Shown here: positions 12,001 through 50,364 of the stretch, piece by piece
How the letters are laid out: every line of letters begins with the position of its first letter
Numbering within the stretch: position 1 is the stretch's first letter
Assembly (NCBI RefSeq): GCF_900105185.1
Contig: NZ_FNTJ01000001.1
Location: 1,873,501 to 1,937,500, forward strand
DNA: 64,000 nt
DNA from: Pseudomonas saponiphila
GTDB lineage: Bacteria > Pseudomonadota > Gammaproteobacteria > Pseudomonadales > Pseudomonadaceae
Direction: 5' to 3'
Notes under the pieces: model-generated
The model's input: the letters and a program-made list of their open reading frames with translations, nothing else
Database searches by the model: none
Told to the model about the DNA's origin: nothing
Translations under genes and position numbers: made by a program

Positions 12001-12700
12001 CCTGTACCGCACTGGCGACCTGGCCCGCCGGCGCAGCGATGGGGTGCTGGAATACGTCGGCCGGATCGACCATCAGGTGAAGATCCGTGGCTACCGCATC
12101 GAGTTGGGCGAGATTGAAGCGCGCCTGCACGAACAGCCGGAAATCCGCGATGCCGCCGTGGGCGTGCAGGAAGGGGCCAACGGCAAGCATCTGGTGGGCT
12201 ACCTGGTGGCCAGTGACTCAAGCCTGAGCCCGAGCGAATGCCTGGAGCGGATCAAACCGCGGCTGCGCGCCGAACTGCCCGAATACATGGTGCCGCTGCA
12301 CTGGCTGTGGCTTGCGCGCCTGCCGCTCAACGCCAACGGCAAGCTCGACCGCAAGGCCCTGCCGGCCCTGGAGATCGGCCAGTTGCAGAGCCAGGACTAT
12401 CAAGCCCCGAGCAGCGAACTGGAGCAGACCCTGACGGACATCTGGGCCGAGGTGCTCAAGGTCGAACGGGTGGGCGTGCGCGACAACTTCTTCGAGTTGG
12501 GCGGGCATTCCCTGCTGGCGACCCAGATCGCCTCGCGGGTGCAGAAAACCCTGCAACGCAACGTACCGCTGCGGGCCATGTTCGAGTGCAGCACGGTGCA
12601 GGAACTTGCTGCGTACATCGAAGGCCTGGGTGCCAATGCAATCAGCGAGGAAAAGGTGGACCGGCTGAGCGACCTGATGGCCGAGCTGGAGGGCCTATAG
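1..12700 (+). CDS. pvdL: Pyoverdine NRPS PvdL, 5' end outside window
   Basis: This is the synthetase that starts pyoverdine peptide assembly in the cytoplasm. About 4232 residues are visible, reading from base 2, with no start codon; roughly 100 N-terminal residues should lie to the left. Order by nucleotide: acyl-CoA/FAAL-type ligase (to ~1390, [11 protein letters not shown] near 205), carrier (GGNSI ~1530), C (~1690-3000, HHIIADG), A (~3060-4560), carrier (GGHSL ~4690), C (~4870-6180, HHIVTEG), A (~6260-7770), carrier (GGDSI ~7905), epimerase (~8070-9400, HHLVVDG), C (~9450-10790, HHILIDA), A (~10840-12370), carrier (~12500). There is no thioesterase. The order ligase-T-C-A-T-C-A-T-E-C-A-T is that of PvdL, which loads a fatty acid and then Glu, D-Tyr and Dab. 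The substrates are taken from the family; I did not derive specificity codes. Confidence 0.95.
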
Positions 12701-16182: not shown

Positions 16183-16995
16183 ATGCCTTTCGCAACCATC
16201 GATGGACAACCGCTGCACTACCTTGACCAGGGCCAGGGGCCCGTGGTGTTCCTGGCCGGTAGTTATTTGTGGGACACCGGCATGTGGGCGCCGCAGATCG
16301 AGGCGTTGTCGGCGCAGTACCGGGTGATTGCTGTGGATCTGTGGGGCCATGGCCAGTCCGGGGCGTTGCCGGTAGGCACCGCGTCGCTGGACGATGTGGC
16401 ACGGCAGATGCTGGCCTTGCTCGACCATTTGCAGATCGAGCGCGTCACGCTGGTGGGCTTGTCGGTGGGTGGCATGTGGGGCGCTCGTCTGGCCCTGGCG
16501 GCGCCGCAGCGCATCGACGGCCTGGTGCTGATGGACACCTACCTGGGGGCCGAACCGGAGCCGACCCGGCAGTATTACCTTTCCCTGTTCCAGCAGATCG
16601 AGCATGCCGGGGGGATCTCCGAGCAACTGCTGGATATCGTGGTGCCGATCTTCTTCCGTCAGGGTATCGATCGGCAGTCGGCGCTGTATCAGGATTTTCG
16701 TGCCAGCCTCGCCGCACTGCCGACCGAGCGCCTGCGCCAGAGCGTGATCCCCATGGGACGCATCACCTTCAGCCGGGCGGATGTGCTGGATCAGCTGCCG
16801 CACCTGGATGGGCGCAACACCTTGCTGCTCTGTGGCGACCAGGACCAGCCGCGGCCGCTTGCTGAAACCATCGAAATGGCCGAGCGCATTGGCTGCCCTT
16901 ATCAGCGAGTGCCCGAGGCGGGGCATATTTCCAGCCTTGAAAACCCGCAGTTCGTGACCCGGGTCCTGTTGGCGTTTTTACAGCGCGACGCTTGA
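16183..16995 (+). CDS. Alpha/beta-fold hydrolase
   Basis: A 270-residue cytoplasmic hydrolase; ATG 16183 has AGGAG upstream. The nucleophile elbow is GLSVGG near residue 95, the oxyanion-side block is VVFLAGSYLW near 20, and WGHGQSG near 57 is the usual turn after strand beta4. The catalytic histidine is probably in EAGHISS near 246, with the acid in the CGDQDQP segment near 223. These features fit an esterase or hydrolase of the 3-oxoadipate enol-lactonase/peroxidase-like group. The substrate cannot be told. The terminator at 16108-16157 separates it from the preceding gene, and a REP follows. Confidence 0.85.
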   Translation: MPFATIDGQPLHYLDQGQGPVVFLAGSYLWDTGMWAPQIEALSAQYRVIAVDLWGHGQSGALPVGTASLDDVARQMLALLDHLQIERVTLVGLSVGGMWGARLALAAPQRIDGLVLMDTYLGAEPEPTRQYYLSLFQQIEHAGGISEQLLDIVVPIFFRQGIDRQSALYQDFRASLAALPTERLRQSVIPMGRITFSRADVLDQLPHLDGRNTLLLCGDQDQPRPLAETIEMAERIGCPYQRVPEAGHISSLENPQFVTRVLLAFLQRDA

Positions 16996-17118: not shown

Positions 17119-20100
17119 TCAGCTTGAAATCTGTTCTTCCAGAGGGTTCAGTTGCGCCAGAAATGCAGCCGCGCCCATTCTTTTCAAGGGGTATTTGCCA
17201 CGGCTCACGGCTTCGAAATACCGCAGCGACCCCCAGAGTTTAAAATCGCCCACCAGATAGACCCGACGTTTGGCCCGGGTGAGTGCAACATTCAGCAGAT
17301 TGGGTTTGGATGCGGCCCACTGCGCAGCTCCTGCATGATCAAGGTCGGCCCCCAGCAGCATGAAGACGGTGTCTTGTTCCTTACCCTGGAAGGTATGCAC
17401 GGTGCCGATGGAGGATTTCAACCATTGCTTCAATTCCCCCGAGGGCAATTTCGGACGATGGTTGGGGCTGGCCCAAGCAGCTGCGCGTATGGCTTTTTGC
17501 AGGGCCAGGCGCACCGCCTTGAACGGTGAAATCACGTATAGCTGCGGCAGTTCTCCGTCGCGCAAGTAGAGTTGCCCGATAAGGTGGACCATGAACTCGA
17601 TCTGTTTAGGCACGACTTGTTTGTGTTCGACATGGCCAGGGATGTCGACCCAGCAACTGGAGCTGTAGACCGGGGCGCCCTGTTCGGCATGGGCACTGGG
17701 CAGACCAAAGACCATCTTGTTGCCGTAGGCGATTTGATTCGACAGGCTGAACATGGGTTCGATGCAGCGTCTGTGGACCCTCAAGGGGCTGCCGATCCAC
17801 AGTTCTTCGTCGGTATCGTTCCTGAAAACGCTTCCATAGCGATTGTTCTGGTCCGCCAGGCTCTGCACCGACACGCGATTGGGGGCGAAGGCTTGGTTGG
17901 CGGTGTGTACTGACAGCTGGCCGAGTGCCTTGACCAGGCGTTGCGGCAGGGTGAAGACCGGTTCGATTTGCAGAGGATCGCCCACGATCATGGCTCGTTT
18001 AGCCCGCCACAATGCGCCGACGGCTGCCTGAGGCACGGCTTGTCCCGCTTCGTCGATGTACAGCCACCCCAGCGAGCCGGCGCCCATTCCGCGGAACTGG
18101 TTGGCAAAGGAGGCAAAAGTACTTGAAACCACCGGTATCACCATGAACAGACTTTGCCAGAGCACCTGTGTGAGTCGTTCATCCTCGGGCGTCTTGTTGC
18201 TCAGCAATAGGCTGATGGCGGCGAGGTTGGCGCTAAAACCCTTGCCGTTCGAGCCCGAGGGGGCGACCTCGGCAAGCCAGGCTTCATGCAGGGTCAACGC
18301 CGCGGCGAATAACGTCGAACGCAAGTGATTGAGTGCAGCATCGTGCCAAAGCCCGTTTATCTGGAAGTCGCGGTCTTCCAGTTCACTCAGATGACTTGGC
18401 AAGTTCGGACGACCCAGACGGGTGGCGAAATCATCCAGGGATTGGCACTTGCCTTGCCACTGCGTTCTACGCGTATCGAGTTCGCTCTCACAGAACGGCA
18501 ATGAGGTTTGTGCCTCTTCGAGCTTCGGTATCAGGCTATTGCTGAGTAGGCCTTGCGTACTGTTGATCTCTTCATGCGCCTGACGCTGCAACCGGGCATT
18601 TTCCTGTTGTTCACCCCGATGGGCCCTAGCTGCTGGCGTGTTGAACAAGCGCTTCCACCATGTTGGGCGACTGCGATCTATCAGGCGTTCCAGTTCCTGA
18701 AGGCTGCTCAGATGTTGCTTGGACGCTTGAAGTTTCTGCTGGTGTTGCTCCAGTGACTGCTGGGCGGATGCCCTGAGCTGTTCGGCCTGATGGAAGGCCT
18801 GTTGTTGAAGGCCCAGGAAGCTGTGCTCGTCGGTAGCCGACATCTCACTCAGCAGGCTGGCATAACGGGCCCGTTCCTCCAGCGCTTTGTTGACAGCCTC
18901 ATCGGCTTTTTTGAATGCCGCGCGGGCCTCCTTGAAGCTGGGCCCTTTGTATTCATCCACCCATTGACGAATCGTCAGTGGTTTATGGGGGGCGGTGGAA
19001 TCTACCGGGTTGAAGAATATGCGTTCCTGCAAGGCTTTACGGTTGCCACTGTTGCCCAGTGCGGCGCAGATCAGTCCCCAGGGTTTATCCTCATCGGACA
19101 GTTCGCTGATGCTGCCATCACTGTTCTGTGCGGCAATTTTATGGGCAACCGGTTGCAGGTACTGAACGTTGCTCCAGCCTTTTCCCAGCGACTTGCGTTT
19201 GGGCAAGTCTCGGGAAATGTTTTCTACGGCGGCATTGTTGTAGGAGGCCACCACCATTTCATAGCCGGTCAACTCGGGTTTGAGCGCGCGGAGGGTGAAG
19301 GTATTTGCCATGCCCTTGAAGGTGACCTGAGGCTTTTTTCCGCCAACGAATGCATCCGCTGCGTCGCTGTATCCCGCCAGGACCCGGGCTCGACGCACAA
19401 TGTTCTCTGCGAACATGTCACGCAATAAAGTCGTTTTACCGGTCCCCGGCGGGCCGTTGACGGTGAACACGCCACTGTCTTCCAACGTGCCAAGTGCGCT
19501 GTTGATTGCGAACTGTTGCATCAGGCTCATAGCATGGCCCGGTTCATCCGGCCAGTGCCCAGGGTTGATGCATTGCGGTTGCAAGGCCTGATAGAGGGCC
19601 TTGCGTCCATTCTCGGTATACAGGTCAATTCGTTTGCTTGGATCGGCTTCAGCCAGGTACTGCAACAGAGCCGGGGGCTGTTCCCCACGCTGCAAGCTGG
19701 CGATCGCACGCTCGATATCTTTTATGAAAAAGCTGTTGAGTATGTCGATCTCGGTATCGGTTTCTTCTTCGTCCTCGACTTTCGCGACCTGTGCTGCTGA
19801 AGGTTGGGTGAGCGGCTTTTCGACCTTGGGCTGAGTCAGTACCTGAAGCAGCGCAACAGGGGCGCGGCCGTCCTGGTCCGGGGTAAAACGGGCCCAGTTG
19901 CACAGCAGTTGATGCAGATACATGACCTCGTCGGCCGTCAAGGCCGGGTCATCATTTTGCTGGCGCTGTCCATGGAAGTTGTGCAGCAGTTTTGCCAACT
20001 GCTCCTTGGCTTCCTCGAAGGCTTGGTGGCCCAGGGCATCAAGCCCCTTGGTGATTGTTTGCCCCAACGCCCAAGGCGCGGTGGACAGTGAGAGGGCATC

Positions 20101-20472
20101 GAGTTGAGGAACCGCTTGAGCATTGAGCTTGATCTTGGCGAAGCAGGTCAGCCCTTCAAGCTCCACCCGTTCCTGTTCTTCGTAGAACGTGTTTTCGTCG
20201 ATTGAGCAGGCGGCCAGGTGCGGTTCGCAAAGGGTGGCAATGACGGAGGCGTCAAAAACCCCGATATAGAGATTGAAGCCTGTGATTTTTAGGTCATCGG
20301 GTATGGAAAAAGTGCGCCAATGACTGTGCTGGATATCTTCCCGCGAGAGCCATCGGGTCTCCCATTTTTTAAAGTCCTCGACATATTTCTCAAGGGCATA
20401 GGGTAAAAAGAATTCCACCTTATGCCAGTAGTCGAGAATCTCTAGAAGCCTGGCTTGTCCTTGAGCTGTCAA
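17119..20472 (-). CDS. SF1 (UPF1/COG1112-type) helicase, stand-alone
   Basis: A 1117-residue protein with a TTG start at 20472 (GGGA about 10 bases upstream). The N-terminal ~320 residues have no motif I recognise. Walker A GPPGTGKTTL lies near 341, a long Gln/Glu-rich probable coiled coil at ~490-660, and Walker B YIDEAGQ near 807. After VGDPLQIEPV come HTFQGKEQD near 1028 and NVALTRAKR near 1065, the helicase motifs V/VI of UPF1-like enzymes. It should unwind nucleic acid using ATP. No nuclease domain or partner gene is visible. The gene looks less G+C rich than its neighbours by eye, which may mean acquisition. A role in phage or plasmid defence is possible but not shown. Confidence 0.85.
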   Translation of the reverse strand: MTAQGQARLLEILDYWHKVEFFLPYALEKYVEDFKKWETRWLSREDIQHSHWRTFSIPDDLKITGFNLYIGVFDASVIATLCEPHLAACSIDENTFYEEQERVELEGLTCFAKIKLNAQAVPQLDALSLSTAPWALGQTITKGLDALGHQAFEEAKEQLAKLLHNFHGQRQQNDDPALTADEVMYLHQLLCNWARFTPDQDGRAPVALLQVLTQPKVEKPLTQPSAAQVAKVEDEEETDTEIDILNSFFIKDIERAIASLQRGEQPPALLQYLAEADPSKRIDLYTENGRKALYQALQPQCINPGHWPDEPGHAMSLMQQFAINSALGTLEDSGVFTVNGPPGTGKTTLLRDMFAENIVRRARVLAGYSDAADAFVGGKKPQVTFKGMANTFTLRALKPELTGYEMVVASYNNAAVENISRDLPKRKSLGKGWSNVQYLQPVAHKIAAQNSDGSISELSDEDKPWGLICAALGNSGNRKALQERIFFNPVDSTAPHKPLTIRQWVDEYKGPSFKEARAAFKKADEAVNKALEERARYASLLSEMSATDEHSFLGLQQQAFHQAEQLRASAQQSLEQHQQKLQASKQHLSSLQELERLIDRSRPTWWKRLFNTPAARAHRGEQQENARLQRQAHEEINSTQGLLSNSLIPKLEEAQTSLPFCESELDTRRTQWQGKCQSLDDFATRLGRPNLPSHLSELEDRDFQINGLWHDAALNHLRSTLFAAALTLHEAWLAEVAPSGSNGKGFSANLAAISLLLSNKTPEDERLTQVLWQSLFMVIPVVSSTFASFANQFRGMGAGSLGWLYIDEAGQAVPQAAVGALWRAKRAMIVGDPLQIEPVFTLPQRLVKALGQLSVHTANQAFAPNRVSVQSLADQNNRYGSVFRNDTDEELWIGSPLRVHRRCIEPMFSLSNQIAYGNKMVFGLPSAHAEQGAPVYSSSCWVDIPGHVEHKQVVPKQIEFMVHLIGQLYLRDGELPQLYVISPFKAVRLALQKAIRAAAWASPNHRPKLPSGELKQWLKSSIGTVHTFQGKEQDTVFMLLGADLDHAGAAQWAASKPNLLNVALTRAKRRVYLVGDFKLWGSLRYFEAVSRGKYPLKRMGAAAFLAQLNPLEEQISS

Positions 20473-38528: not shown

Positions 38529-39299
38529 ATGAAAAAGACCCTGGCCGTACTGGCCGCCGTGCTGTCTCTGAGCGTCAATGCCAACGAAAAACTGCTGGTG
38601 GGCGCGACCCCGGTGCCCCACGCCGAGATCCTCGAATTCGTCAAACCCGAGTTGGCCAAGGAAGGCGTGGACCTGGACATCAAGGTCTTCACCGACTTTA
38701 TCCAGCCCAATCAGCAACTGGCGCTGAAGAACCTCGACGCCAACTACTACCAGTACCGGCCGTTCCTCGATGACTTCAACAAGACCCGGCACACCAACCT
38801 GGTGCCGGTGGTGGGGGTGCACATCGAGCCCTTCGGTGCCTATTCCACCAAGATCAAGAACATCGCCGAGCTCAAGGACGGCGCCAGCGTGTCGATTCCC
38901 AACGACCCAGTGAACACCGGCCGGGCCCTGGTGCTGCTGCATGAAGCGGGGTTGATCAAGCTCAAGGACCCGAGCAACACCCTGGCCACCCAGCGCGATA
39001 TCGTCGACAACCCCAAGCACCTGAAGATCCGTGAACTGGAAGGCGCCTTGCTGGCCCGTTCGGTGAGCCAGGTGGACCTGGCGTTCGTCTTCGCCAACTA
39101 CGCCCTGGAAGCCGGCATCGACACCAACAGCGCGCTGATCGTGGAGAAGGGCAAGGATCTGTACATCGAATTCCTGGTGGCCCGTCCGGACAACATCGAC
39201 GACCCGCGGATCCAGAAACTGGCCAAGGCGCTGAACTCCGACGCCGTGCGCCAATTCATCCTGAGCCGTTACAAAGGCCAGATCGCCCCCGGCTTCTAA
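38529..39299 (+). CDS. metQ: MetQ/NlpA-type substrate-binding protein
   Basis: A 256-residue periplasmic protein; the signal peptide KKTLAVLAAVLSLSVNA lacks a lipobox Cys, so it is soluble rather than a lipoprotein. Family blocks are LVGATPVPHAEIL near 23, NYYQYRPFLDDFN near 75 and SIPNDPVNTGRAL near 121. ATG 38529 has TTAGGAGCAA upstream. It is the binding partner of MetI in the sfnB-metI-metQ operon. Confidence 0.92.
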   Translation: MKKTLAVLAAVLSLSVNANEKLLVGATPVPHAEILEFVKPELAKEGVDLDIKVFTDFIQPNQQLALKNLDANYYQYRPFLDDFNKTRHTNLVPVVGVHIEPFGAYSTKIKNIAELKDGASVSIPNDPVNTGRALVLLHEAGLIKLKDPSNTLATQRDIVDNPKHLKIRELEGALLARSVSQVDLAFVFANYALEAGIDTNSALIVEKGKDLYIEFLVARPDNIDDPRIQKLAKALNSDAVRQFILSRYKGQIAPGF

Positions 39300-39481: not shown

Positions 39482-40816
39482 TCAGGTGCGCTGGTGCGCC
39501 TGCTCGCGATCAGCTTGCTGGGCGTCATCCAGCAGCACTTCCTTGAGTGGCACGGCGCCGACGGCCAGGGCTTTTTCGATGCTCAGGTCGTCGCCCTGGG
39601 TGGCCAGCAGGGCTTGCAGTCGCTGGAACTCACCGCACCAAATGGTTTCGATGTCCTTGTCGCGTCGGGTATCGCGCTGGGCGCTGAGGGCGACCGCTCG
39701 TACCTGCAGGCGGCCGTTGTCGGCGTTGCCCCCGACTTCCACGCCGTATCCCGGGGTGGCGCTCTTGCGCAGCACCACCCGGCCATCCTTGGCCCAGGCG
39801 GTGGCCATGCCCTCGCGGACTTCGTAGCCCAGGCCGGCCAGGCCTTCGAGCACCGCCTGACGACGGGCCAGGGCGGCGCGCTGTTGCAACTCGGCTTCGA
39901 TCAGCGCGCTGAAGCGGGCAATCAGCTCATCCACGGGCGCCATGTTGGCCAGGCTGCACTGTTCGGCCCGGGACAGCTCTGCCCCGGCGGCCGCCGGACA
40001 CAAGCTCGCCACTTCGCTGGCCAGTGCCTGGAGGCGCGCCAGGCGTGCGCGGCGCTCCTGGCTGTCACGGGTGGCCTGAGCCAGTTCCAGCACCAGGCTG
40101 TCCAGCAACAGGTTGCGCTGTGGCGCGCGGGTTTCGGCGTCGATCAGGCGCAAGGCGGCCAGGTAGGGGTCGGCACTGGCCTGATCATCGAGGGTCAGCA
40201 ACTGGGCAATGTGCTGCTCGATGCGTTCCAGCCTGGGTTCCTTTTGTTCATGGGCGGCGCGCCATTGGGCCAGGGTCTGGGGTGCGCTGTCGTCTTGCAG
40301 GCGTCGGGCCAGTTGTTGCTGGGCCTCGCTCAGGCCCGGCTCCTGGGCGACGGCGCCGAGGTGGGCGAACCCCTGGGCCAGGATCGACTCGACCGCCGCC
40401 ACGGGCTGGCCTTCGGCAATCGCCTGCAACTGTTGCAGCCACTCGGCTGAAAGGGCTTTGCCTTGCAACGCCCCCAGCAGGGTGGCGGCGTTTTCCCGCT
40501 GACGGCGGGCCAGTTGGCGCTGTTGCGCGACCTGCTGCACGGCGCGTTGTTCCCGTTGTTGCAGATCGTCCTTGAGGAACTCGATTTCGATCGGCACCTG
40601 TTTCTGCAGATCCACCAGGCGATCGGCTTCGATCAATTGGCGCAACTGCTGGAGACGGCCGTGGGTCGCGGCCCGCTCCTGCTCGCTCAGTTGCCCCAGG
40701 CGTTGCGCCTGGGCTTCCCAGCGGGCAATCGCCTGCTCCAGGCGCCGCAGGTGACCGGCGCAGATGTCGAGGATTTCTTCACGGGTGACGATCCGCACCA
40801 CTTTCGGGCCGCTCAT
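39482..40816 (-). CDS. Coiled-coil protein, last gene of the defence-like operon
   Basis: A 444-residue soluble protein beginning MSGPKVVRIVTREEILDIC. Residues ~20-330 are Gln/Arg/Glu/Ala-rich and largely predicted helical coiled coil. The C-terminal ~110 residues (from GLGYEVREGM) look like a compact beta-rich domain with VVLRKSATPGYGVEV and TIWCGEFQRLQ. No catalytic motif is recognised. ATG 40816 overlaps the stop of the helicase-fusion gene (ATGA), so the two are cotranslated. It may be an adaptor or a sensor in the same complex; that is inference. Confidence 0.7.
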   Translation of the reverse strand: MSGPKVVRIVTREEILDICAGHLRRLEQAIARWEAQAQRLGQLSEQERAATHGRLQQLRQLIEADRLVDLQKQVPIEIEFLKDDLQQREQRAVQQVAQQRQLARRQRENAATLLGALQGKALSAEWLQQLQAIAEGQPVAAVESILAQGFAHLGAVAQEPGLSEAQQQLARRLQDDSAPQTLAQWRAAHEQKEPRLERIEQHIAQLLTLDDQASADPYLAALRLIDAETRAPQRNLLLDSLVLELAQATRDSQERRARLARLQALASEVASLCPAAAGAELSRAEQCSLANMAPVDELIARFSALIEAELQQRAALARRQAVLEGLAGLGYEVREGMATAWAKDGRVVLRKSATPGYGVEVGGNADNGRLQVRAVALSAQRDTRRDKDIETIWCGEFQRLQALLATQGDDLSIEKALAVGAVPLKEVLLDDAQQADREQAHQRT

Positions 40817-43800
40817 GGGGTTTGCTCCGTGTCAGCCAGGGTTTGAGGTGGCGTTTGTGCTGCGCAGCCGGCCAGCGGTTGCAGGGCCTGTTCGATGGCG
40901 GCCTGCAGGCGTGCGCGTTCGTTGTGGGGGTCGTGGTACCAGGCCTGGGACGAGACTCGATGCAGGTGGGGAATGGCTCGGCGCAGTACCGACGGGCGCC
41001 AGATCTCCCGGGAGCGGGCGCGGGCCAGCAGCCCGTGGCGCGGGGTGTCGCATTCGATGCCCAGGGCGTAGAGCCCGGTATCGGGATGCTCGATGGCAAA
41101 GTCCAGGCCGAAGGCATCCCCTTCGTTGGCGCTGATCGGGTTCCAGCCCAGGGAGCGGATGAACGCCGCCACCGCCTGGGTGAATCCGTCGCCGTGGTCG
41201 TTGTGCCGGGCCCGGGTGTCCTGGCGCTCGGTGACCAGGCGCTGCAGCAGCTTGTGGCCGCTGGCGAACTCCCCGGCCGACAGGGCGCGGGCGTACTCCA
41301 GGTAGCCTTGCAGGTAGTCTCGCGGGCTGGCGGGCGGGCGCTGGGTGGTGAGCATGTCGGAGATGTCGGCAATCGGCATCGAGGTGATCATCACCACTTT
41401 GCGCCGGGCCCGGGTCACCGCCACATTGAGCCGGCGTTCGCCGCCGGTCTGCCCGAGCACCCCGAAATTGCGTCGGAAACTGCCTTGGCCGTTTCGCCCG
41501 AAGGTCGAGGAAAACACGATGATGTCGCGCTCGTCGCCCTGGACGTTCTCGACGTTCTTGACGAACACCGACATGTCTTCGCCGTCCTCGCTGCGTTCGC
41601 GTTCCTCGCTGTAGGCGGCACGAAACACCGGGTCCTGTTCGGCTCGCAGCTCCAGGTGCTCCTCGATCAGGTCGGCCTGCTTGCGGTTGAAGGTCACCAC
41701 CCCCACCGACGGTCGCTCGGCGTAGGGCGTCTGCCACAGCTCGGCCAGGTAGTCGACCACCCGTTGCGCCTCCTCGGGGTTGACCTGCTGCTGGTAGACG
41801 CCGTCCACGCGGATCAGCTCCAGCGGCTTGATGGCGAGGATATTGGCCTCTGGGTGACGCACCGGAATGCTCAGCCGGTTGCCATAGAACGAGGCGTTGG
41901 AGAAACCGATCAGCTCGCGGTAGGCCGAGCGGTAGTGGATCTGCAGGGTGGTGGCGGGCAAGGCGCTGCGGGCCAGTTGCAGCAGGTCCGGGCAGTCCTT
42001 GATTTCGCGGCGGTTCCAGGTGTCTTCGAAGGCCTCGCGTTGTTCTTCGTCGGCGTCGGCATCGGGCTGGTCGCCGTCGAACAGTTCGGCCTCGTCGCTT
42101 TCCACCCGGCTGGAGAAGAAGGCGGTGGGCGGCATCTGCTTCTCGTCGCCGCTGACCACCGTGACCCGGCCCCGGTACAGGGTCGGCAGGGCGAATTCCA
42201 CCGGCATCTGCGAGGCTTCGTCGTAGATCACGATATCGAACAGCCCGGGCTTGAGCGGCAGCACCCGGCTGGCCACGTCCGGGTTCATCAGCCATACCGG
42301 CCGCAGGCTCATCAGCCCAAGACCAGCGCCCATCTCCATGAATTCGCGCAAGCGGCGCGAACGCCGGCCGGTGAGGCGGGTCACGTCTTCCCACTGCTTG
42401 CGGGTGCCCAGGCGCGCGAGGTCGATGCCTTCGCTGAGCAGTTGGCGGTTGAGGCTGCGCATCTGGGTGTCGGCCTGCCCGAGGCTGGCGATCTTCGCCG
42501 CGGTTTCACTGTGCTCCAGCATCAGCTCGGGTTGGCGTTGTTCCATCTGGCGCTTCCAGCCCAGCCGCGCTTCGCGGTTGAGCATGCGCCGGACCACGGC
42601 CTCCAGCTGCTCGGCGGGAATGGCGTCGAGCGTTGTCTGGTATTCGCGCAGTATCTGCAGTAACTCCAGGTCGGCCGGTGACAGCTGGCCGGCCCGGGCG
42701 CGGAACGCCTGGTAGGCGCTCAGGGTCGGCAAGGCTTCGCGCAGGCGATTGAGGGCCGGCTGGTTGCCCTGGTTGTGCTCCACGCGCTGACGCAGTTGGC
42801 CCAGCAGCTCCGGTTGCAACCATGGATTGAGGCGCTGCAGGGCATTCAGGCTGTCCTGGCGCACGCTGTGGCGGATAAAGGCGGCGTCGTAACCGGCCAG
42901 CAGGCTGTCCAGGGGTTGCCGCTGGCCGGTCAGTACCACGGCGTCCAGCTGTTCCACCCGTGGCGCCTGCGCCAGGCTCATGGCCAGGACGCGCATTTCT
43001 TCCAGCTGCCCGAGGTCCTGGCGCACTTGCGGCAGCAGGTCCGGGCCGCAATCGTCGGCGATCTGCGCGAGGCCCAGTTGCTGATGCAGTTGCTGCAACT
43101 GGTTGCGCAAGGGCCGCCACTGGCTTTCCAGCAGGGCCGCCGCCAGCAGTGGCGGCAGGTGCTGCGGCTCGGCCGGGGCGCCCTGTTCGGCGAGGAAGGC
43201 CAGCAACCGGCGCTGGCGGATCAGGCGCAGCGGGTTCAGGCGCGCCAGCCAGGAGCGGCCCTGGATCACGGCGCGGGCGCGGTGCTGCAGGGTGCGCAAC
43301 TGGGCCGCGGGCAGGGCGCTGAGGCCCGGCGCCAGATCGGCCTGATGGGCCGCCGCGTCGCATTGCTGCAGTTGTTGAGCCAGGGCTTGCAGGGTCTGGA
43401 TCAGCCCATCGCCTTCGGCCGTCTGCCCCGGGTGGCCACGGAACAGCGGCAGCCAGCGCGCCAGCCGCTGGCGGCGTTCATCGTCCAGGCCCAGCAGGCT
43501 GTGCACGTGCTGTTCGAGCCAGGCGCGGTAGGGCGCCGGGTCGTCCACTTCAAAATCGGCCGGGTGCGCCTGCAGGGTTTCCAGGCGCTGTTCCTCGCAG
43601 CGCCACAGGCGTTCGAAGCCGTCGTTGAAGGCTTGCAGGGTGGCGGCATCGGTGGGGAACGGCTGGAGCTGGGCCAGGGCGCTCTGTTCATAGCGGGCCG
43701 GCAGCCACAGGCGGATCAGCGGCGCGCAGGCTTCTTCCAGGCGCGTCAGGTCGGCGATGCCCAGGGCCGCCAGGTGCTGGCGCAGTACCGCAACGTCCAG

Positions 43801-46800
43801 TGGCGCAGGCCCCTGTTCCAGGCCGATCAGCTCGCCGATCAGCTGGCGGTAGCTCAAGCCGCAGTGTTCATCGACGCGGTGCAGGCTCTGGTGGAAGCGA
43901 TCCAGCTCGCCCTCCAGGGCCTCGATGCGTGCCGCCAGGCGCTCGCGCTGGTGCAGCCAGGGCTGCTGGGCGGCATCGTCCTTGAACAGGGCTTCGAGCT
44001 GTTCGCGGACACTGCGGATCACCGGTTCGCGGTCGCGGTTGATGTCGTTGAGCATCACCACCCGGTTGCCCAGGCCCTCGGCCACCAGGCGCTTGTGCAC
44101 CACCTCCAGGGCCGCGTGCTTCTGGCAGACGATCAGCAGGCTGCGCTGGCGACCGATGGCGTCGGCCACCATGTTGACGATGGTCTGGCTCTTGCCGGTG
44201 CCGGGCGGCCCTTCCACCAGCAGCCCGGGCGCCTGGCGCGCCTGGAGCACCGCGGCTTCCTGGGACGGATCGCTGGCCACGGTAAAGAAGCGTTGCAGCT
44301 CCGGCGCGGGCGCTGCGGCCGGGCTGTCGCCGCCGTCCTGCTCCGTCGGGTTCAGGCGCAGGGCGGTTTCCAATCCGGTGCCGCCGGGCGGCAGGGCCTT
44401 GAGCTGGCGCAGGTCCTCGCCAATGGCCTGGCCGATGAAGGCGACGTGGAACAGCACGGCGGCGCAGGCCAGTTGATCCTGGTAGGGCGGCACCTCGGTG
44501 CTGGCCGGCGGCAGGTTGCCCAGTACCCGGGAACCCGGCGTGGCCAGCATGCCGAAGGCGTCCATGACATCGGCAGCCTTGAGCGCCGAGCGTCCCAGCA
44601 GTTCGTCGGCGGCCTTGCGCCAGAGCTTGGCGGGCTCGATACCCAGCAGGGTGTCGAGGCCCGGGTTGAGGCGCACCTCTTCACGCTCGCTGTCGAAGAC
44701 CAGGGCCACCTTGCCGCGGCTGCCGACTTCCAGCAGCAGCTTGACCGGCCACAGCAGCAAGGGCGCGATGCGGGTGCGGGTGGTGCCTCGCGGGTCCCGG
44801 GTCAGGAGGAAGGGGAAGCCCAGGTACAGGCCGTCGATCCCGGTGTCGCGCTGGTACAGCGAACTCTGGCGGTACAGGCTGTTGAGCCGCGCATCCAGCA
44901 GTGGATTCTCGGCGAAGCACGCCGGGTCGAGGTGGATGGGCTGGGCGTTGCGCGCCACCAGATGATCCAGCAGCGCCGGGGCCGGGCTGCGTTCGCCGTG
45001 CAATTCGTTGAGGTCGACCCGGGCGGTGGTCTTGCCGATGCTCATGCGCACCAGCGGGCCGCGCAGCACCCCGCTGGCGACCTTCTTCTCGAAGAAGTCG
45101 AGGATCTGCGCAACGTAATGCTGCTTTTGCGGTTCCAGCCACTGTTCGGCACCGATGGCTAGCAGCACCAGGGCCTTGGCCAGGGGCATGCGCCGTTCCA
45201 GGCGGAACTGCTCGGCCCACTCGTCGACGCTGGGCACGCCGCAGCGGGCGAAGCCGCTGATGCGTTCGTCGACCTCCCGGTACAAGACCGGGCGCGGCAG
45301 CCCCAGCAGGGTGCGGGCGCTATCGGCATCGAAGCTCAGGACTACGGCCTCGCAGGCCAGGGTGGTGGCTTCTTCGAGGATGGCGTCCACCGCGCGGAAC
45401 TGGCCGATGGCGGCGCTGAGCAGCACGATCAGGTCTTCTTCACTGATGGTGCGCCGGTCGGCCAGGGACAGGATGCCGTGGTGCTCGCTGTCCGGCAGCA
45501 GACGCTGACGTGCTTCCCATAGCGCGGCCAGATGGGCTCGGGAGCTGGAGAGCAGGTAGATGCGCAACTGCTCCTCGTCCAGTTCGATGGCCTGGTGCTG
45601 GGCGCGTTGGCGCACCTGTTCGGCCCGCAGCTTGAGCCGCGACAGCCAGTGTTCGCTCTCCAGGCGTTCCAGCAGGTCCGGGGCCGGGCCGCTGATCAAC
45701 CGGTAGCCGTCCAGGGGATGTTCCAGCAGCCAGCCCGGGGTGACGATCTGGCCGCGCAGGATCAGCGGCATTTCCGGGTTCAGCAGCTTCAGCGCCAGCA
45801 TCAGCCGGGTATCGTCTTCCAGCTCCTGGTGCTGGGCTACCTGACGCAGGCCGGCCAGGTGGCGGGCGGACACCCCGGCCTGTTCGGCCCAGGTGACGAT
45901 CACCCCGCGCAACAGGTGATCCAGGGCCTGGGGCCAATGCTCGGCTTCGGCGGCGGCCAGGGCGAACGGTCCCGGGCGGCGGAAGCGCCGGGTGCCCAGG
46001 GCAATGCTGGCGCCTTCGTCGGCGTCCTCTTCGCGGGTGATCGAGTCCGGGACGCGGGGGCTTTCGCCCTGCAGCCAGGCCTGAACCTGGGGCCATTGCC
46101 AGCGCTGGTGGCGATCCCGCGCCAGCAGGCCGCGCAGCAGCAGCTCCAGGCGCGGGTCGAGGTCCTCCGGCAGCAGCACGCCATTGGCCAGCACGTGAAT
46201 CAGGTAGGCGTTGGCGTTGATCCCGGCAAAGCACTGGCCCTGGGTCAGTTGCTCCAGCAGGATCATCCCCAGGCTCCACCAGTCGGAAGCCGCGGCCACG
46301 CCGCCGGCGATGGCTTCGGGGGCCATGTAGCGGCTGGTTTCCAGAGGCGAGACGATGTCCAGGTCGAACTCGGACAGGCGCGCCGAGCCGAAGCCGCTGA
46401 TCACCAGGTCCAGGGGCTCGCGGCTGCGCACCAGCAAAGTGGCCGGACGCAGGTCGCGGTGGCGCAGGCCGGCTTCACTGAACGCATGCAGGGCCTGGCC
46501 CAGTTCACTGACGATGTGCTGTACCGCCGCCCGATCGCTGACCACGATTCCCAGCTCGGCCAGGGTGCCGCCGGTGAGCTCCTCGGCCACTTCGAAGGCG
46601 CGTTCGTCCCAGCGGCCGGTGAGGATGATCTCCGGCACGTGTTCCCGGGGCAGGCGCTTGAGGGCTTCGTACACCGAAGGGTCGGGTTCGGCGCCGGCCT
46701 GGTAGAGGGTCAGCACCGCCTGCTGGGCGGTTTCACGGTGCTCGGCGATAAAGCGCTCGCGCACGCCGCCGCTGCTGATCTGCCGCAGCAGGCGCCAACC

Positions 46801-47130
46801 CTCGATCACGGTTTCGCTGTCGGCGGCGGGGGCTGTGGCGGCAGCGGGTTGCTCCGCGGCAAGCGGGTCGGCGCCGCAGACCAGGCACATCAGGTCGCCG
46901 TCGGCCATGGCGTGGCCGTTGCTGCAGGCCAGGGTTGAGCTGCCGTGCGCTGCGACCTCGGGCTGGGGCTCCAGTGCTTCGGCGGTGATCACCGGCTGCG
47001 GGCGCCAGCCCTCGGGGTGAATCGCTTCGGCGGACAGTTCCCAGCCGCAGACCCGGTGGTCCACCTGGCCTTCGCAGAAGATTTCGGCCAGGGAGCGTTC
47101 AGTCTGGCAATTGGGGCAAAAACGTATCAT
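40813..47130 (-). CDS. Zinc-ribbon / pseudokinase / SF1 helicase / nuclease fusion
   Basis: A 2105-residue multidomain protein. At the N-terminus are Cys clusters FCPNCQ...C...C (5-28) and ACSNGH...CLVCG (~67-86). A protein-kinase-like domain (~110-355) has HRDLRP and MAPEA, but the VAIK Lys is Thr, the Asn after HRD is Thr and DFG reads GFG, so it is probably a pseudokinase. A DUF4011-like linker leads to an SF1 helicase: GPPGTGKSQT near 975, IYDEASQMP near 1637, NVENVQGDERD, and NVAVTRARR near 1905. The C-terminal domain has GLDFAIEHPD...GIECDTPRHG (~2005-2030), like MTES_1575/Vsr-type nucleases. Sense-kinase-helicase-nuclease fusions are typical of conflict systems. The radical-SAM gene ends 15 bases before it. 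Confidence 0.85.
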   Translation of the reverse strand: MIRFCPNCQTERSLAEIFCEGQVDHRVCGWELSAEAIHPEGWRPQPVITAEALEPQPEVAAHGSSTLACSNGHAMADGDLMCLVCGADPLAAEQPAAATAPAADSETVIEGWRLLRQISSGGVRERFIAEHRETAQQAVLTLYQAGAEPDPSVYEALKRLPREHVPEIILTGRWDERAFEVAEELTGGTLAELGIVVSDRAAVQHIVSELGQALHAFSEAGLRHRDLRPATLLVRSREPLDLVISGFGSARLSEFDLDIVSPLETSRYMAPEAIAGGVAAASDWWSLGMILLEQLTQGQCFAGINANAYLIHVLANGVLLPEDLDPRLELLLRGLLARDRHQRWQWPQVQAWLQGESPRVPDSITREEDADEGASIALGTRRFRRPGPFALAAAEAEHWPQALDHLLRGVIVTWAEQAGVSARHLAGLRQVAQHQELEDDTRLMLALKLLNPEMPLILRGQIVTPGWLLEHPLDGYRLISGPAPDLLERLESEHWLSRLKLRAEQVRQRAQHQAIELDEEQLRIYLLSSSRAHLAALWEARQRLLPDSEHHGILSLADRRTISEEDLIVLLSAAIGQFRAVDAILEEATTLACEAVVLSFDADSARTLLGLPRPVLYREVDERISGFARCGVPSVDEWAEQFRLERRMPLAKALVLLAIGAEQWLEPQKQHYVAQILDFFEKKVASGVLRGPLVRMSIGKTTARVDLNELHGERSPAPALLDHLVARNAQPIHLDPACFAENPLLDARLNSLYRQSSLYQRDTGIDGLYLGFPFLLTRDPRGTTRTRIAPLLLWPVKLLLEVGSRGKVALVFDSEREEVRLNPGLDTLLGIEPAKLWRKAADELLGRSALKAADVMDAFGMLATPGSRVLGNLPPASTEVPPYQDQLACAAVLFHVAFIGQAIGEDLRQLKALPPGGTGLETALRLNPTEQDGGDSPAAAPAPELQRFFTVASDPSQEAAVLQARQAPGLLVEGPPGTGKSQTIVNMVADAIGRQRSLLIVCQKHAALEVVHKRLVAEGLGNRVVMLNDINRDREPVIRSVREQLEALFKDDAAQQPWLHQRERLAARIEALEGELDRFHQSLHRVDEHCGLSYRQLIGELIGLEQGPAPLDVAVLRQHLAALGIADLTRLEEACAPLIRLWLPARYEQSALAQLQPFPTDAATLQAFNDGFERLWRCEEQRLETLQAHPADFEVDDPAPYRAWLEQHVHSLLGLDDERRQRLARWLPLFRGHPGQTAEGDGLIQTLQALAQQLQQCDAAAHQADLAPGLSALPAAQLRTLQHRARAVIQGRSWLARLNPLRLIRQRRLLAFLAEQGAPAEPQHLPPLLAAALLESQWRPLRNQLQQLHQQLGLAQIADDCGPDLLPQVRQDLGQLEEMRVLAMSLAQAPRVEQLDAVVLTGQRQPLDSLLAGYDAAFIRHSVRQDSLNALQRLNPWLQPELLGQLRQRVEHNQGNQPALNRLREALPTLSAYQAFRARAGQLSPADLELLQILREYQTTLDAIPAEQLEAVVRRMLNREARLGWKRQMEQRQPELMLEHSETAAKIASLGQADTQMRSLNRQLLSEGIDLARLGTRKQWEDVTRLTGRRSRRLREFMEMGAGLGLMSLRPVWLMNPDVASRVLPLKPGLFDIVIYDEASQMPVEFALPTLYRGRVTVVSGDEKQMPPTAFFSSRVESDEAELFDGDQPDADADEEQREAFEDTWNRREIKDCPDLLQLARSALPATTLQIHYRSAYRELIGFSNASFYGNRLSIPVRHPEANILAIKPLELIRVDGVYQQQVNPEEAQRVVDYLAELWQTPYAERPSVGVVTFNRKQADLIEEHLELRAEQDPVFRAAYSEERERSEDGEDMSVFVKNVENVQGDERDIIVFSSTFGRNGQGSFRRNFGVLGQTGGERRLNVAVTRARRKVVMITSMPIADISDMLTTQRPPASPRDYLQGYLEYARALSAGEFASGHKLLQRLVTERQDTRARHNDHGDGFTQAVAAFIRSLGWNPISANEGDAFGLDFAIEHPDTGLYALGIECDTPRHGLLARARSREIWRPSVLRRAIPHLHRVSSQAWYHDPHNERARLQAAIEQALQPLAGCAAQTPPQTLADTEQTP

Positions 47131-47145
47131 CGGTGGCGGTTCCGG

Positions 47146-47790
47146 TTAACGGCGGCGTGAGGTGTGGGCGCTGGTCTGGAGTTGGTGGCCCTGGGCGTGC
47201 AGCAGGTCGCGCAGACGCAGCAGGTCGTCACGCCGGGGGATGCCAGCCATCCAGACACTGCCGTCGTCGTCGAACATCACATCCAGCGCGCGCTCGTCTT
47301 GGTGCAGCGGGCGCTGGTAGCTGGACAGACGCTGGCGGCCCAGCTCGGTCAAGAGGATCAGGCGCTGGTTGTCGCTGCCCCGTAGGACCAGCGTTTGCGC
47401 CTGTTGTTGCTCGAAGGGGTCGCAGATCAGTGCATCCAGCAGGCCTTCGGCTTGTTCAAGCAGCGGTTGCAGGCGTTCCAGGGAATGGCCGCTGTAGACC
47501 AGGATGTCCACCGCGGTGCGTTCGCGCAGGGCGCGCAGCAGGGCCAGCAGGGCCTCGGGCTGGTCGAAGGGCTCGCCGCCGGACAGGGTGATGCCTTCGG
47601 CCTGGGCCAGCCAGGGTTGCAGGTCGTCCAGCACCTGGGGCAACGGCAATGGCTGCTTGCCCGGGCCCCAGGTGTCCGCGGAAATGCAGCCTTCGCAACG
47701 AATGCTGCAGCCCTGGAACCAAAGGCCCAGGCGCTGTCCCGGCCCCAGGGTGGTGACCGGGAAGTGCACCCGCGACAGGCTGATGTTCAC
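47146..47790 (-). CDS. Small radical-SAM protein (NrdG/activase-like)
   Basis: A 214-residue protein. GTG 47790 overlaps the stop of the AAA+ gene (GTGA) and gives the N-terminus NISLSRVHFP. The CxxxCxxC motif for the 4Fe-4S cluster is CSIRCEGC near 30-37, and the SAM-binding GGE is in TLSGGEPF near 71. Size and motifs are like NrdG and pyruvate-formate-lyase activases, which make glycyl radicals, but no glycyl-radical enzyme is encoded nearby. The target is more likely a nucleotide, a metabolite or an operon partner. This is an unusual member of a helicase-nuclease operon. Confidence 0.82.
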   Translation of the reverse strand: MNISLSRVHFPVTTLGPGQRLGLWFQGCSIRCEGCISADTWGPGKQPLPLPQVLDDLQPWLAQAEGITLSGGEPFDQPEALLALLRALRERTAVDILVYSGHSLERLQPLLEQAEGLLDALICDPFEQQQAQTLVLRGSDNQRLILLTELGRQRLSSYQRPLHQDERALDVMFDDDGSVWMAGIPRRDDLLRLRDLLHAQGHQLQTSAHTSRRR

Positions 47791-49625
47791 GAAGCGCGGG
47801 CAAGCAATTGCAGGCTGCCGGCCTGCAACTGGCGGACTTCGAAGGACTGGCCGGGCTGGGCGTCCTGGTCGAACAGGGCCCGGGCCAGGGGGTTGAGCAG
47901 GTGCGCTTCCAGCTGGTTGCGAATGCCCCGGCCACCGTTGGACAGGTCTTGCAGACACAGCTGGCGCAGGTTGCCCAGAGAGGCGTCATCGAGCTGCACG
48001 TGCAGGGCCTGGGCCGCCAGGTCGGCGAGGATGTTGCCGACCATCTGCTGGAAGATCTGCTCGGCGATGTCCGGGCGGATGAAGTCGAAGACGATGATGT
48101 TCTCGCCGATGCGGTTGAGGATTTCCGGTCGATTGAGCACCAGCTTGAAGTGCCGCTCGATCTCCCCCTGGACCTTGCCCTGCACGGCCTCGAAGGCTTC
48201 GCCGGGCTGCACGTTGGCGACGCGTTCGCCGTGCTCGCCCTGGCGGTAGATGCCCAGGTTGGAAGTGAAGACGATCAGCGCCTCGGAGAAGTACACCCGA
48301 TCGCCGCGGCCGGAAGTGAGTACTCCGTCGTCGAGGATCTGCAGGAACTTGTCGAGGATTCGTGGGTGAGCCTTTTCGATCTCGTCGAACAGCACCACGC
48401 TGAAGGGCTTTTCGCGGATGGCGTTGGTCAGTTCGCCGCCCACGTCATAGCCGACGTAGCCGGGCGGGGCGCCCACCAGGCGCTGGTCGGCGTGTTCGGC
48501 GCTGAATTCCGACATATCGAAGCGGATGTATGCGCTTTCGTCACCAAACAGCAGGCTGGTGATGGTCTTGGCCAGTTCCGTTTTGCCGACCCCGGTGGGC
48601 CCGGCGAGAAAGGCCACGCCCCGGGGACGATTGCCCTTGCGGCTGGCGCCGACTCCGGTCATGGCGCGCTTGACGATGTCCAGCATGTGGGTCACGGCGT
48701 GGCCCTGGCCCTTGACCCGCTGGCGGATGAAATCATCGGCCTGGCGGATGCGCTGGCGGTCGATCTTCAGCCAGGGGTCTTCGGTGACCCCGACCTTATA
48801 GCGGCGCACGGCGTCGCCGATGCGCTCCATGGCCAGGCCTTCGACCCGGGCCAGTTGCACGATTGCATTGAGGTCGAGCAGCAGCAGGCCTTCGGTATTT
48901 TCGACGAAGGCCCGCACCGCCTGGTCGCGGTTCTCTTGGCTGGCTTCCTGGGCCCCGGGCAGGCCCCGCAGCAGCGCCGGCGCCAGCGCCTGGCGGGCCT
49001 GCTGGTCGGGTTTGGACACCGGAATCGGGCGCAGGCGCGGGTTGTCGATCAGCAGCCAATCGGGCAGGTCGCCTTCCTTCTCCACCACCCAGAGGATGCT
49101 GTTGAAGAACGGCGTGCGCTGTTCCCCGGCTGGCCGGCTGCGGGCCTGATGGGACAGCACCAGGGCCTGGGTGAACAGCTGGTGCTCGGCGGCGCTCAGG
49201 GCGTCGTTGCGGATCACCAGGCGGGAGGCGAAATCGACAATCAGGGCCAGGGGCGCGCCTTGGCGTTCCACCAGGCGCGGCAAGGTGGCGCACAACAGGT
49301 CGAGGCCCGCTGGCGCCGCGCCTTCCACCGGGGTCAGCCCCAGTTCGCGCAGCAGGTTGTCGGCCTGGGCCGGCTCGCTGCCCGGGGGCAGCAGCACCCG
49401 CAGCCCGCCGAGGGGATCCCAGCTCAGCACCTGGGCATAACCGGCCGCCAGCAGTTCGTCGCGCAGATTGAGATTGAAGGGTTGGGGTGTGATGACCCCG
49501 GGGGCGACTTCGCTGGCTTGCAGGTCGCGGACGTTGCCGGACAGTACGAACTGGCTTTTCAGAGGGAGAAAGCGCAGCAGATCACGCAGCCAGCGTGGCT
49601 TTTCGAAAGAGGCAGTCCTTGGCAT
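47787..49625 (-). CDS. Clp/HSP100-like AAA+ ATPase, first gene of the defence-like operon
   Basis: A 612-residue ATPase. The N-terminal ~280 residues (with FVLSGNVRDLQ near 27 and LALIVDFASR near 125) look like an AAA+ module without Walker A, so probably inactive. The second module is ClpA/B-like: GPTGVGKTEL near 347, pore-loop-like GAPPGYVGYD, VVLFDEIEKAHP near 413, sensor 1 FTSNLG, and the Arg-finger region LNRPEILNRIGEN. It lacks a Clp N-domain and ClpP loop, so it is probably not a protease partner. ATG 49625 follows a REP-containing gap, so transcription of the four-gene operon probably starts here. Confidence 0.85.
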   Translation of the reverse strand: MPRTASFEKPRWLRDLLRFLPLKSQFVLSGNVRDLQASEVAPGVITPQPFNLNLRDELLAAGYAQVLSWDPLGGLRVLLPPGSEPAQADNLLRELGLTPVEGAAPAGLDLLCATLPRLVERQGAPLALIVDFASRLVIRNDALSAAEHQLFTQALVLSHQARSRPAGEQRTPFFNSILWVVEKEGDLPDWLLIDNPRLRPIPVSKPDQQARQALAPALLRGLPGAQEASQENRDQAVRAFVENTEGLLLLDLNAIVQLARVEGLAMERIGDAVRRYKVGVTEDPWLKIDRQRIRQADDFIRQRVKGQGHAVTHMLDIVKRAMTGVGASRKGNRPRGVAFLAGPTGVGKTELAKTITSLLFGDESAYIRFDMSEFSAEHADQRLVGAPPGYVGYDVGGELTNAIREKPFSVVLFDEIEKAHPRILDKFLQILDDGVLTSGRGDRVYFSEALIVFTSNLGIYRQGEHGERVANVQPGEAFEAVQGKVQGEIERHFKLVLNRPEILNRIGENIIVFDFIRPDIAEQIFQQMVGNILADLAAQALHVQLDDASLGNLRQLCLQDLSNGGRGIRNQLEAHLLNPLARALFDQDAQPGQSFEVRQLQAGSLQLLARAS

Positions 49626-49730: not shown

Positions 49731-49786
49731 GGGCTTGCCGACGAAGGGGCATGAGATCGCCTTCGCCGGCAAGCCGGCTCCTACGG
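49731..49786. repeat. REP pair overlapping the soxR stop
   Basis: GCGGGCTTGCCGACGAAG and the inverted GCCGGCAAGCCGGCTCCTAC. The soxR TAG (49783-49781) lies inside the REP, so the last soxR codons and the repeat touch. Confidence 0.65.
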
Positions 49787-50254
49787 GGTGTCGGTGGGGG
49801 CGTCGGGCGCCAGCAGGCGGGCGCCTGGGCCGGCTTCTCCCAGCACGTCTCCCTGGTTGCGCAGCGGGCAACCTTCCATGGACAGGCAACCGCAACCAAT
49901 GCACTGGTTCAGTCGTTCGCGCAACAGGCTCAGTTGGCGGATGCGTTCGTCCAGTTCGCGGCTCCACTGCTCCGACAGGCGCTGCCAGTCGGCGGCGCTG
50001 GGGGCGCGGTCGGCGGGCAGGCTGGCCAGGGCCTGGCCGATCTCCGCCAGGGGAATGCCCAGACGCTGGGCCACTTTGATCAAGGACACGCGACGCAGCA
50101 CCGAGCGCGGATAGCGCCGCTGGTTGCCGGCGTTGCGGTTGCTCTTGATCAGTCCTTTGCTTTCGTAGAAGTGCAGCGCGGTCACGGCCACGCCGCTGCG
50201 GGCCGAGAGCTGGCCGACCGTCAATTCTTTATGGAGGGCGTCGGGTTCGATCAT
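49781..50254 (-). CDS. soxR: Redox-sensing MerR-family regulator SoxR
   Basis: A 157-residue DNA-binding regulator. The helix-turn-helix is [20 protein letters not shown] and the dimer helix follows. The 2Fe-2S ligands are in [12 protein letters not shown] (C-x2-C-x-C-x5-C) near 119-130. SoxR reacts to redox-cycling compounds such as phenazines in Pseudomonas. I chose ATG 50254 (MIEPDALHK), the usual position before the HTH. It is divergent from a monooxygenase gene, with a SoxR box between them. Confidence 0.93.
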
Positions 50255-50283
50255 TGAAAGGGCACCAGAATGAAAAAACAGGC

Positions 50284-50314
50284 TTGACCTTGACTTAACT
50301 AGAGGTTTTACCCT
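50284..50314 (+). promoter_or_regulatory. SoxR-controlled promoter with 19-bp spacer
   Basis: TTGACC (50284-50289) and TACCCT (50309-50314) are 19 bases apart, the long spacing of MerR-type promoters. The spacer holds CCTTGACTTAACTAGAGG (50288-50305), 14 of 18 matches to the E. coli soxS box. It points to the monooxygenase gene. Confidence 0.75.
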
Positions 50315-50364
50315 GCCGCCCATTGCATCGCAAGATTCTGTCCGACCGCCGTAGGGAGTAGTTC

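Follow-up and report, generated by a model that had tools for sequence, protein, structure and literature searches.

A mobile four-gene operon of Pseudomonas saponiphila encoding a predicted DUF4011-type helicase-nuclease, an Hsp100-like ATPase and a radical SAM protein

Type II Mokosh, one of the described systems closest to the locus presented here, is defined by a PLD nuclease, and the Mokosh helicase falls in the same broad superfamily 1 (SF1) group as the one encoded at this locus. Hhe and ProA are modelled as anti-phage proteins in NCBIfam, and PDC-S37 is a candidate in PADLOC; no paper on ProA as a phage system was found in the open full-text literature. FtsH ternary conflict systems combine a two-domain AAA+ ATPase, the first domain of which is inactive, with a stand-alone radical SAM protein predicted to modify a peptide effector, which is the nearest published idea to the one developed below (Kaur 2020, PMC7159879). 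We describe a four-gene operon in a 64,000-nucleotide stretch of Pseudomonas saponiphila (assembly GCF_900105185.1, contig NZ_FNTJ01000001.1, positions 1,873,501 to 1,937,500), hereafter the window, which lies at 1.87-1.94 Mb on contig 1 of a 7.4-Mb genome. Judged by its sequence, the operon is best read as a helicase-nuclease system akin to the DUF4011 and Mokosh systems that also encodes an unusual module predicted to mature proteins, and we lean, with modest conviction, towards a conflict (defence) system that moves horizontally and targets nucleic acids, probably those of phages or plasmids.

The operon and its conservation as a unit

The operon occupies positions 39482-49625 of the minus strand of the window, and the features at issue are as follows:

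47787..49625, minus strand: Hsp100-like AAA+ ATPase, 612 amino acids (aa)
47146..47790, minus strand: NrdG/PFL-activase-like radical SAM protein, 214 aa, GTG start at 47790
40813..47130, minus strand: helicase-nuclease fusion, 2105 aa, ATG at 47130
39482..40816, minus strand: coiled-coil protein (last gene), 444 aa
39309..39462, no strand: repeats of the repetitive extragenic palindromic (REP) type, two 77-bp copies, downstream of the operon at the insertion border

The AAA+ stop and the radical SAM GTG start overlap in GTGA, 15 bases separate the radical SAM stop from the helicase ATG, and the helicase stop overlaps the last-gene start in ATGA, confirming from the sequence the four-gene unit put forward in the original prediction. 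For the radical SAM frame, the GTG at 47790 was taken as the start and a longer mechanical open reading frame from 47958 was disregarded. With a G+C content of 68%, against 66% for the window, the operon is not foreign by composition, and promoter/terminator and Rfam scans returned nothing useful. REP-type elements (GTAGGAGCNGGCTTGCNNGCGA, at most two mismatches) number 16 in the window, where none is expected by chance, and both borders of the insertion are included; because they are so common here, they were rejected as special borders of the insertion and are not taken as evidence.

That the four genes stand together elsewhere is borne out by a scan of GTDB contigs, in which all four were found in identical order and on the same strand at 40/40 related loci (Pseudomonas, Burkholderia, Paraburkholderia, Pandoraea, Cupriavidus, Chitinasiproducens, Stenotrophomonas, Luteimonas, Lysobacter and unclassified Lysobacteraceae). 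All four proteins exceed 80% of full length at 38 of these; at the other two, the AAA+ gene is cut by the contig start (L023), and the last gene is split into frames of 280 and 183 aa from position 16351 (L016, P. morbosilactucae), which may reflect an assembly error or decay. Across the 38 loci and the window, the pairwise distances of each protein track those of the other three (r 0.92-0.95), a correlation that is also expected from common descent alone. A degraded or passenger cluster without a selected function would fit the split gene of L016 and a Microvirga plasmid that carries only the helicase end and the last gene, yet it is very improbable given the near-complete lengths at 38/40 loci and the motif residues, described below, that are kept across three families.

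Protein domains and comparison with described systems

The 2105-aa protein matches the Pfam families Pkinase, DUF4011, AAA_11, AAA_12 and REase_MTES_1575, in an order of two zinc ribbons, a pseudokinase, a helical region, a DUF4011/SF1 helicase and a REase_MTES_1575 nuclease. At its N terminus, two zinc-ribbon-like sets (C5-C8-C19-C28 and C69-H73-C82-C85) are unchanged across 41/41 aligned sequences. Catalytic residues of the kinase part are lost, the beta3 Lys being replaced by Thr141 and the DFG Asp by Gly246, each in all 41 (as placed by alignment with two relatives that retain Lys and Asp), and this part is, judging from its residues, a catalytically dead pseudokinase. Helicase and nuclease motif residues are kept in at least 97% of the 41 sequences, which span Pseudomonadaceae, Burkholderiaceae and Lysobacteraceae, and D2005 and D2010 are present in every one; the protein probably cuts DNA. 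Pfam matches and conserved residues thus agree with the initial description of one protein joining zinc ribbons, a kinase-like fold, an SF1 helicase and a restriction-type nuclease.

By homology, the helicase-nuclease is assigned to the DUF4011 group (PDC-S37, Hhe and ProA). Its best PADLOC model is PDC-S37 (E 5.9e-150), with the best stretch at residues 949-2085 of 2105 and the best of two stretches covering 290-1344 of the 1550 profile positions. The Hhe and ProA models have the helicase-nuclease region in common with it, at 319 bits (cut-off 2000) and 528 bits (cut-off 1500), respectively. MkoA of Mokosh is matched partially (E 5.1e-51, three stretches, the best at 1630-1921), and not over kinase and helicase together, while Pfam at E up to 1 finds no PLD family in the operon proteins, the nuclease being REase_MTES_1575. 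In comparison with PDC-S37, the protein has a zinc-ribbon/pseudokinase head fused on and is accompanied by three constant partner genes. Mokosh differs from the operon, which has no PLD, a dead kinase, and AAA+, radical SAM and coiled-coil partners, and the FtsH ternary systems differ in that the ATPase here is of the ClpB type rather than the FtsH type and the operon contains no MoxR/vWA pair.

The original prediction had related the fusion to Mokosh and other conflict-system helicases and could place the set of four in no named system. The relation to Hhe, PDC-S37 and Mokosh and the lack of a PLD domain stand. No PADLOC model fits more than one of the four proteins as a set, although the candidate PDC-S37 strongly matches the helicase-nuclease half. 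Among the matches listed for the open full-text literature, a scope mostly outside subscription papers, no paper names the four-gene set or the combination of AAA+, radical SAM and helicase.

The AAA+ protein matches AAA_2 (152 bits against a cut-off of 27) and ClpB_D2-small in Pfam. Walker and pore-loop residues of its second nucleotide-binding domain (NBD2) are invariant in 36 aligned sequences, and NBD2 is an intact, ClpB-type domain that is predicted to be active. The Walker A motif is absent from the NBD1 region, which is probably degenerate, leaving an Hsp100-like protein with probably one active ring of two, apparently without N and M domains; the ClpB equivalog TIGR03346 scores 259 bits against a cut-off of 1232, over residues 265-599 only. 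The radical SAM protein matches Fer4_12 (3.1e-23), with a Radical_SAM match below the Pfam cut-off, and its CX3CX2C motif (C28, C32, C35) and GGEP are invariant in 32 sequences. It falls short both of the viperins (pVip E 0.021; NF038283 12.7 against 180 bits) and of the NrdG/PFL activase equivalog (TIGR02491, 73 against 126 bits). Pfam gave no glycyl-radical enzyme match among its three operon partners, the rest of the genome being unsearched.

The 444-aa coiled-coil protein has zero matches in Pfam, PADLOC or NCBIfam. It is mostly helical, with a conserved N-terminal MSGPKVVR and a C-terminal alpha/beta domain (model predicted local distance difference test score 83.6), C394 is invariant in 50 aligned sequences, and 1331 relatives were found at E 0.001 (7995 scored). 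A 1970-aa open frame in genome G664, suggestive of a fusion, was put down to open frame in high-G+C DNA, because on the same contig (L052) the last gene is a separate frame overlapping the helicase stop.

Distribution, mobility and genomic setting

Of 298 genomes from the genus, 12 carry the full-length helicase-nuclease and 48 more match only its C-terminal helicase/nuclease part at 34-40% identity, and the coiled-coil gene occurs in 2/369 genomes of the class and 3/398 of the phylum (own genome included in each count). In the window, matches to metQ (38529-39299) and soxR (49781-50323) lie 10,487 bp apart. Among 95 genomes searched, nine others had a metQ match of at least 82% identity; in seven, none of which is among the 12 carriers, the metQ and soxR matches are 46-201 bp apart, forming an empty site, while in the remaining two soxR is on a different contig (G009) or more than 1 Mb away (G045). 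The window's soxR also stands beside the AAA+ gene at seven loci (L013-L018 and L034), with metQ too at L013 and L015-L017, and the other loci lie in many different neighbourhoods. A helicase tree, built by a quick method with a midpoint root, crosses families, placing Stenotrophomonas inside a Pseudomonas clade and dividing Pseudomonas into two separate clades. The operon is also found on plasmids of Rhizobium (megaplasmids) and Caballeronia, eight records covering at least 80% of the helicase, and a copy on a conjugative Rhizobium plasmid lies 1.3 kb from an IS21 gene. On these comparisons of sequence, the four-gene set is mobile, patchy and horizontally moved. In the Microvirga plasmid remnant (L055), an ISKra4 transposase directly precedes the C-terminal helicase part, the last gene is also present, and a type I restriction endonuclease and a SIR2 protein are near.

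P. aeruginosa presents a different picture. A DUF4011 gene is reported in every P. aeruginosa isolate as a core flank or border of the hotspot cDHS1, the right flank of which is published as conserved border genes and not as a system (Johnson et al., 2023, PMC10250203). Outside this species, the set is patchy and occupies many different sites. The PA7 operon (L042), on a 6.6-Mb complete-sequence record, comes to within about 20 kb of pheT, towards which its last gene is turned, and corresponds to this right flank. Uniform presence in relatives with a known housekeeping role, which the prediction had held to speak against it, is therefore found by half: the DUF4011 gene is reported in every isolate of P. 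aeruginosa, but the set is rare in the rest of the genus (12/298). The same ubiquity favours a role in core cellular maintenance (DNA repair, replication-conflict or stress), whereby the operon would process damaged or stalled nucleoprotein and defence genes would merely insert alongside it in P. aeruginosa. One P. aeruginosa AAA+ cluster (P0146) represents 2522 member sequences, and the window copy is set among metabolic genes (a metQ-type lipoprotein and, by eye, acyl-CoA dehydrogenases), both of which point the same way. Maintenance is nevertheless unlikely, if worth keeping in view, considering that the full-length helicase-nuclease was not found in 286/298 genus genomes, the scarcity of the last gene in the class and phylum, the empty site in relatives and the carriage on plasmids. 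We take PA2725-PA2728 to be the PAO1 counterparts of the four genes and PA2727 to be the operon's helicase. On that identity, a +G indel listed in PA2727 also argues against maintenance (PMC3697988). Passages of this paper and two others name PA2727 or PA2728 only in variant or small-RNA tables (PMC4918941, PMC3697988, PMC5870498).

The neighbour sample comprised 324 representative genes at 33 loci, with seven same-site or near-duplicate loci left out, and 134 neighbours were scanned: 131 of the 155 lying no more than three genes away, and three PA7 genes from further off that were picked by choice. At 2/33 distinct loci, Wadjet JetA/JetB and Lamassu LmuB were found no more than three genes from the operon, and a type II methylase lies slightly further off at a third (PA7, one of the three chosen genes). 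The proposed enrichment near defence genes is not established by these counts, which have no control set. At 1e-10, 81 PADLOC families matched neighbours, and the best 25 of the 81 include PDC-M40A and RtcR, which we take not to be a defence family. Ten neighbour proteins were scanned singly, one of which (L029) gave a weak partial reverse-transcriptase match.

Elsewhere in the window, a lone 1117-aa SF1 helicase (17119-20472, minus strand), about 19 kb from the operon and adjoining a DsbD-like gene (by eye), matches PADLOC MkoC of Mokosh II (2.7e-66), lacks an HKD motif by pattern, and is possibly a second defence-related gene. A 4220-aa non-ribosomal peptide synthetase (38-12700, plus strand) has four condensation, four AMP-binding and four PP-binding stretches.

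The AAA+/radical-SAM pair and the proposed mechanism

The AAA+ and radical-SAM genes form, as gene neighbourhoods indicate, a portable pair that is coupled to differing helicases and nucleases, an observation that is new here. Searching plasmids with the AAA+ protein (tblastn, E 1e-60) gave 20 records, all with a radical-SAM relative in the same region, adjacent in 19 and about 9 kb away in Geminocystis (placed by coordinates or annotation, the annotated ones being checked for homology). Eight carry the operon's helicase, and relatives of a single further hypothetical gene are present in ten (six Moellerella, Photobacterium, Acinetobacter, Leisingera and Polaromonas). The sister order in the five inspected is SF1 helicase, PIN protein, hypothetical, AAA+ and radical SAM; the Moellerella AAA+ is 35% identical to that of the window over residues 12-587, and the best PADLOC model for the sister helicase is MkoA (7e-102). 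On the Acinetobacter plasmid pNDM1_010055 (L080), the sister set is followed by another trio of AAA, radical-SAM and hypothetical genes.

A third arrangement is found on a plasmid of Aristaeella lactis (Clostridia), with the order DUF4011 helicase, kinase, hypothetical, double zinc ribbon with FHA, radical SAM, AAA+, phosphatase, DUF6273 and kinase. Its helicase (partial) is of the PDC-S37 type (4.4e-265) and aligns to the window protein over DUF4011/helicase and helicase/nuclease (E 7e-20 and 4e-48), and the kinase that follows, in which K/HKD/DFG are present, aligns to the window pseudokinase (E 7e-13). Because zinc ribbon, kinase and helicase-nuclease are separate here, the 2105-aa protein looks like a fusion of such parts. 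In genome G673 (616-kb contig), AAA+ and radical SAM stand with zinc ribbon/FHA, a kinase that looks active and two proteins of the FGE-sulfatase type, and none of the genes examined was recognised as an SF1 helicase; Cas3 (2.4e-44 to PDB Cas3) and a CasE/Cse3 relative (1.3e-4) adjoin this module on the same strand (L070:476-7718, minus), and the 544-aa protein between them has no PDB match. At L072 and L090, an FtsH-like AAA (split, by eye), an SF1 helicase, a charged 204-aa protein, radical SAM and a DUF2997 protein adjoin one another. Plasmids of Paenibacillus and Actinomycetota have the order AAA, DUF1257/hypothetical, DUF2997 and radical SAM (AAA+, DUF1257, DUF2997 and radical SAM as neighbours in Paenibacillus), and AAA+ proteins of this type gave no blastp match to the window AAA+ at 1e-3.

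Such plasmids raise the alternative of an element-borne competition module, protecting its own replicon against rival plasmids or aiding persistence rather than protecting the cell from phages. Sister five-gene sets or full operons lie on plasmids of Moellerella, Photobacterium, Acinetobacter, Leisingera, Polaromonas and Rhizobium; the Moellerella plasmid is conjugative, with the set near ArdA and an integrase, and the Leisingera copy is near repABC. Among the matches listed, 0/53 in phage records cover 80% of the AAA+ protein, and the matches of 80 viral-contig loci all begin at residue 258 or later, in the generic second ring. The window, however, lies on contig 1 of the 7.4-Mb genome and the PA7 copy on its 6.6-Mb record, and we consider a competition module quite unlikely.

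For the conflict-system reading, which we prefer, homology of the helicase-nuclease to the Hhe, PDC-S37, ProA and Mokosh models counts in favour. So do the constancy of the four-gene unit and its correlated divergence, its mobility, the coupling of the AAA+/radical-SAM pair to the helicase-PIN set on plasmids, the separate neighbouring parts in Aristaeella, the CRISPR genes adjoining the G673 version and the agreement of the PA7 copy with the cDHS1 border. We infer a division into sensor, modifying enzyme and effector. The zinc-ribbon/pseudokinase head and the coiled-coil adaptor would keep the helicase-nuclease inactive, the pseudokinase acting as a gate, and would detect an invader cue. The radical-SAM enzyme would modify one of its partner proteins. 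The adaptor is proposed as the likeliest target on two grounds: the operon proteins include no glycyl-radical enzyme, and every other partner has a recognised domain. The Hsp100 would then thread the adaptor or the complex, switching the assembly on or off, and the released helicase would translocate on invader DNA (or RNA) while the nuclease cuts. Since two relatives have separate, apparently active kinases with FHA (one with PP2C) in place of a pseudokinase, phospho-signalling was probably the ancestral trigger.

Several points weigh against this reading. A gene present in every P. aeruginosa isolate, as reported in the cDHS1 study (PMC10250203), is unusual for a defence system, and no phage phenotype appears in the open full-text literature searched. 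The PADLOC neighbour matches at 2/33 loci, counted without a control set, establish no enrichment beside defence genes, and most of the neighbour families (25 of 173 listed) are integrases, regulators, transporters or metabolic enzymes. Both the substrate proposed for the radical-SAM enzyme and the sequence of steps are guesses. Finally, the coiled-coil protein has no statistical similarity to its counterparts in other module versions by hhalign or hmmsearch. LGY...C motifs can be seen by eye in the C-terminal domains of several of these versions, but hhalign gave the domain of the coiled-coil protein 0.2-0.4% probability, compared with 37% against an unrelated radical-SAM control, and in hmmsearch with 800 shuffled controls its model significantly matched only the Microvirga orthologue (L055). 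The sister-version model did match a pair of remoter hypotheticals (L076 at E 2e-4 and L077 at 9e-4), one sister matched DUF2997 weakly in Pfam (E 0.05) while the coiled-coil protein had no such match, and hhalign of the sister version with DUF2997 gave 23%. Assignment of the coiled-coil protein to DUF1257/DUF2997 (Ycf35-like), or as a pan-system adaptor, was rejected as unproven.

A more specific version of the conflict-system reading, which we advance tentatively and hold to be doubtful, is that Hsp100 and radical SAM constitute a portable maturation or licensing module placed on different nucleic-acid effectors (an SF1 helicase-REase fusion, an SF1 helicase with a PIN nuclease, or a DUF4011 helicase with kinase/FHA/PP2C), in which radical SAM would modify, and Hsp100 remodel, the coiled-coil adaptor, arming the helicase-nuclease. 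If true, prokaryotic immunity would include protein modification by a radical SAM enzyme, as opposed to the nucleotide chemistry of viperins, and the combination of this chemistry with an Hsp100 motor and a pseudokinase would be a new way of arming a helicase-nuclease. Searches for the recurrent AAA+/radical-SAM pair may lead to other conflict systems on plasmids that have yet to be described. In P. aeruginosa, the "core flank" of cDHS1, until now a landmark only, would be an ever-present immune (or anti-plasmid) system at the edge of the hotspot.

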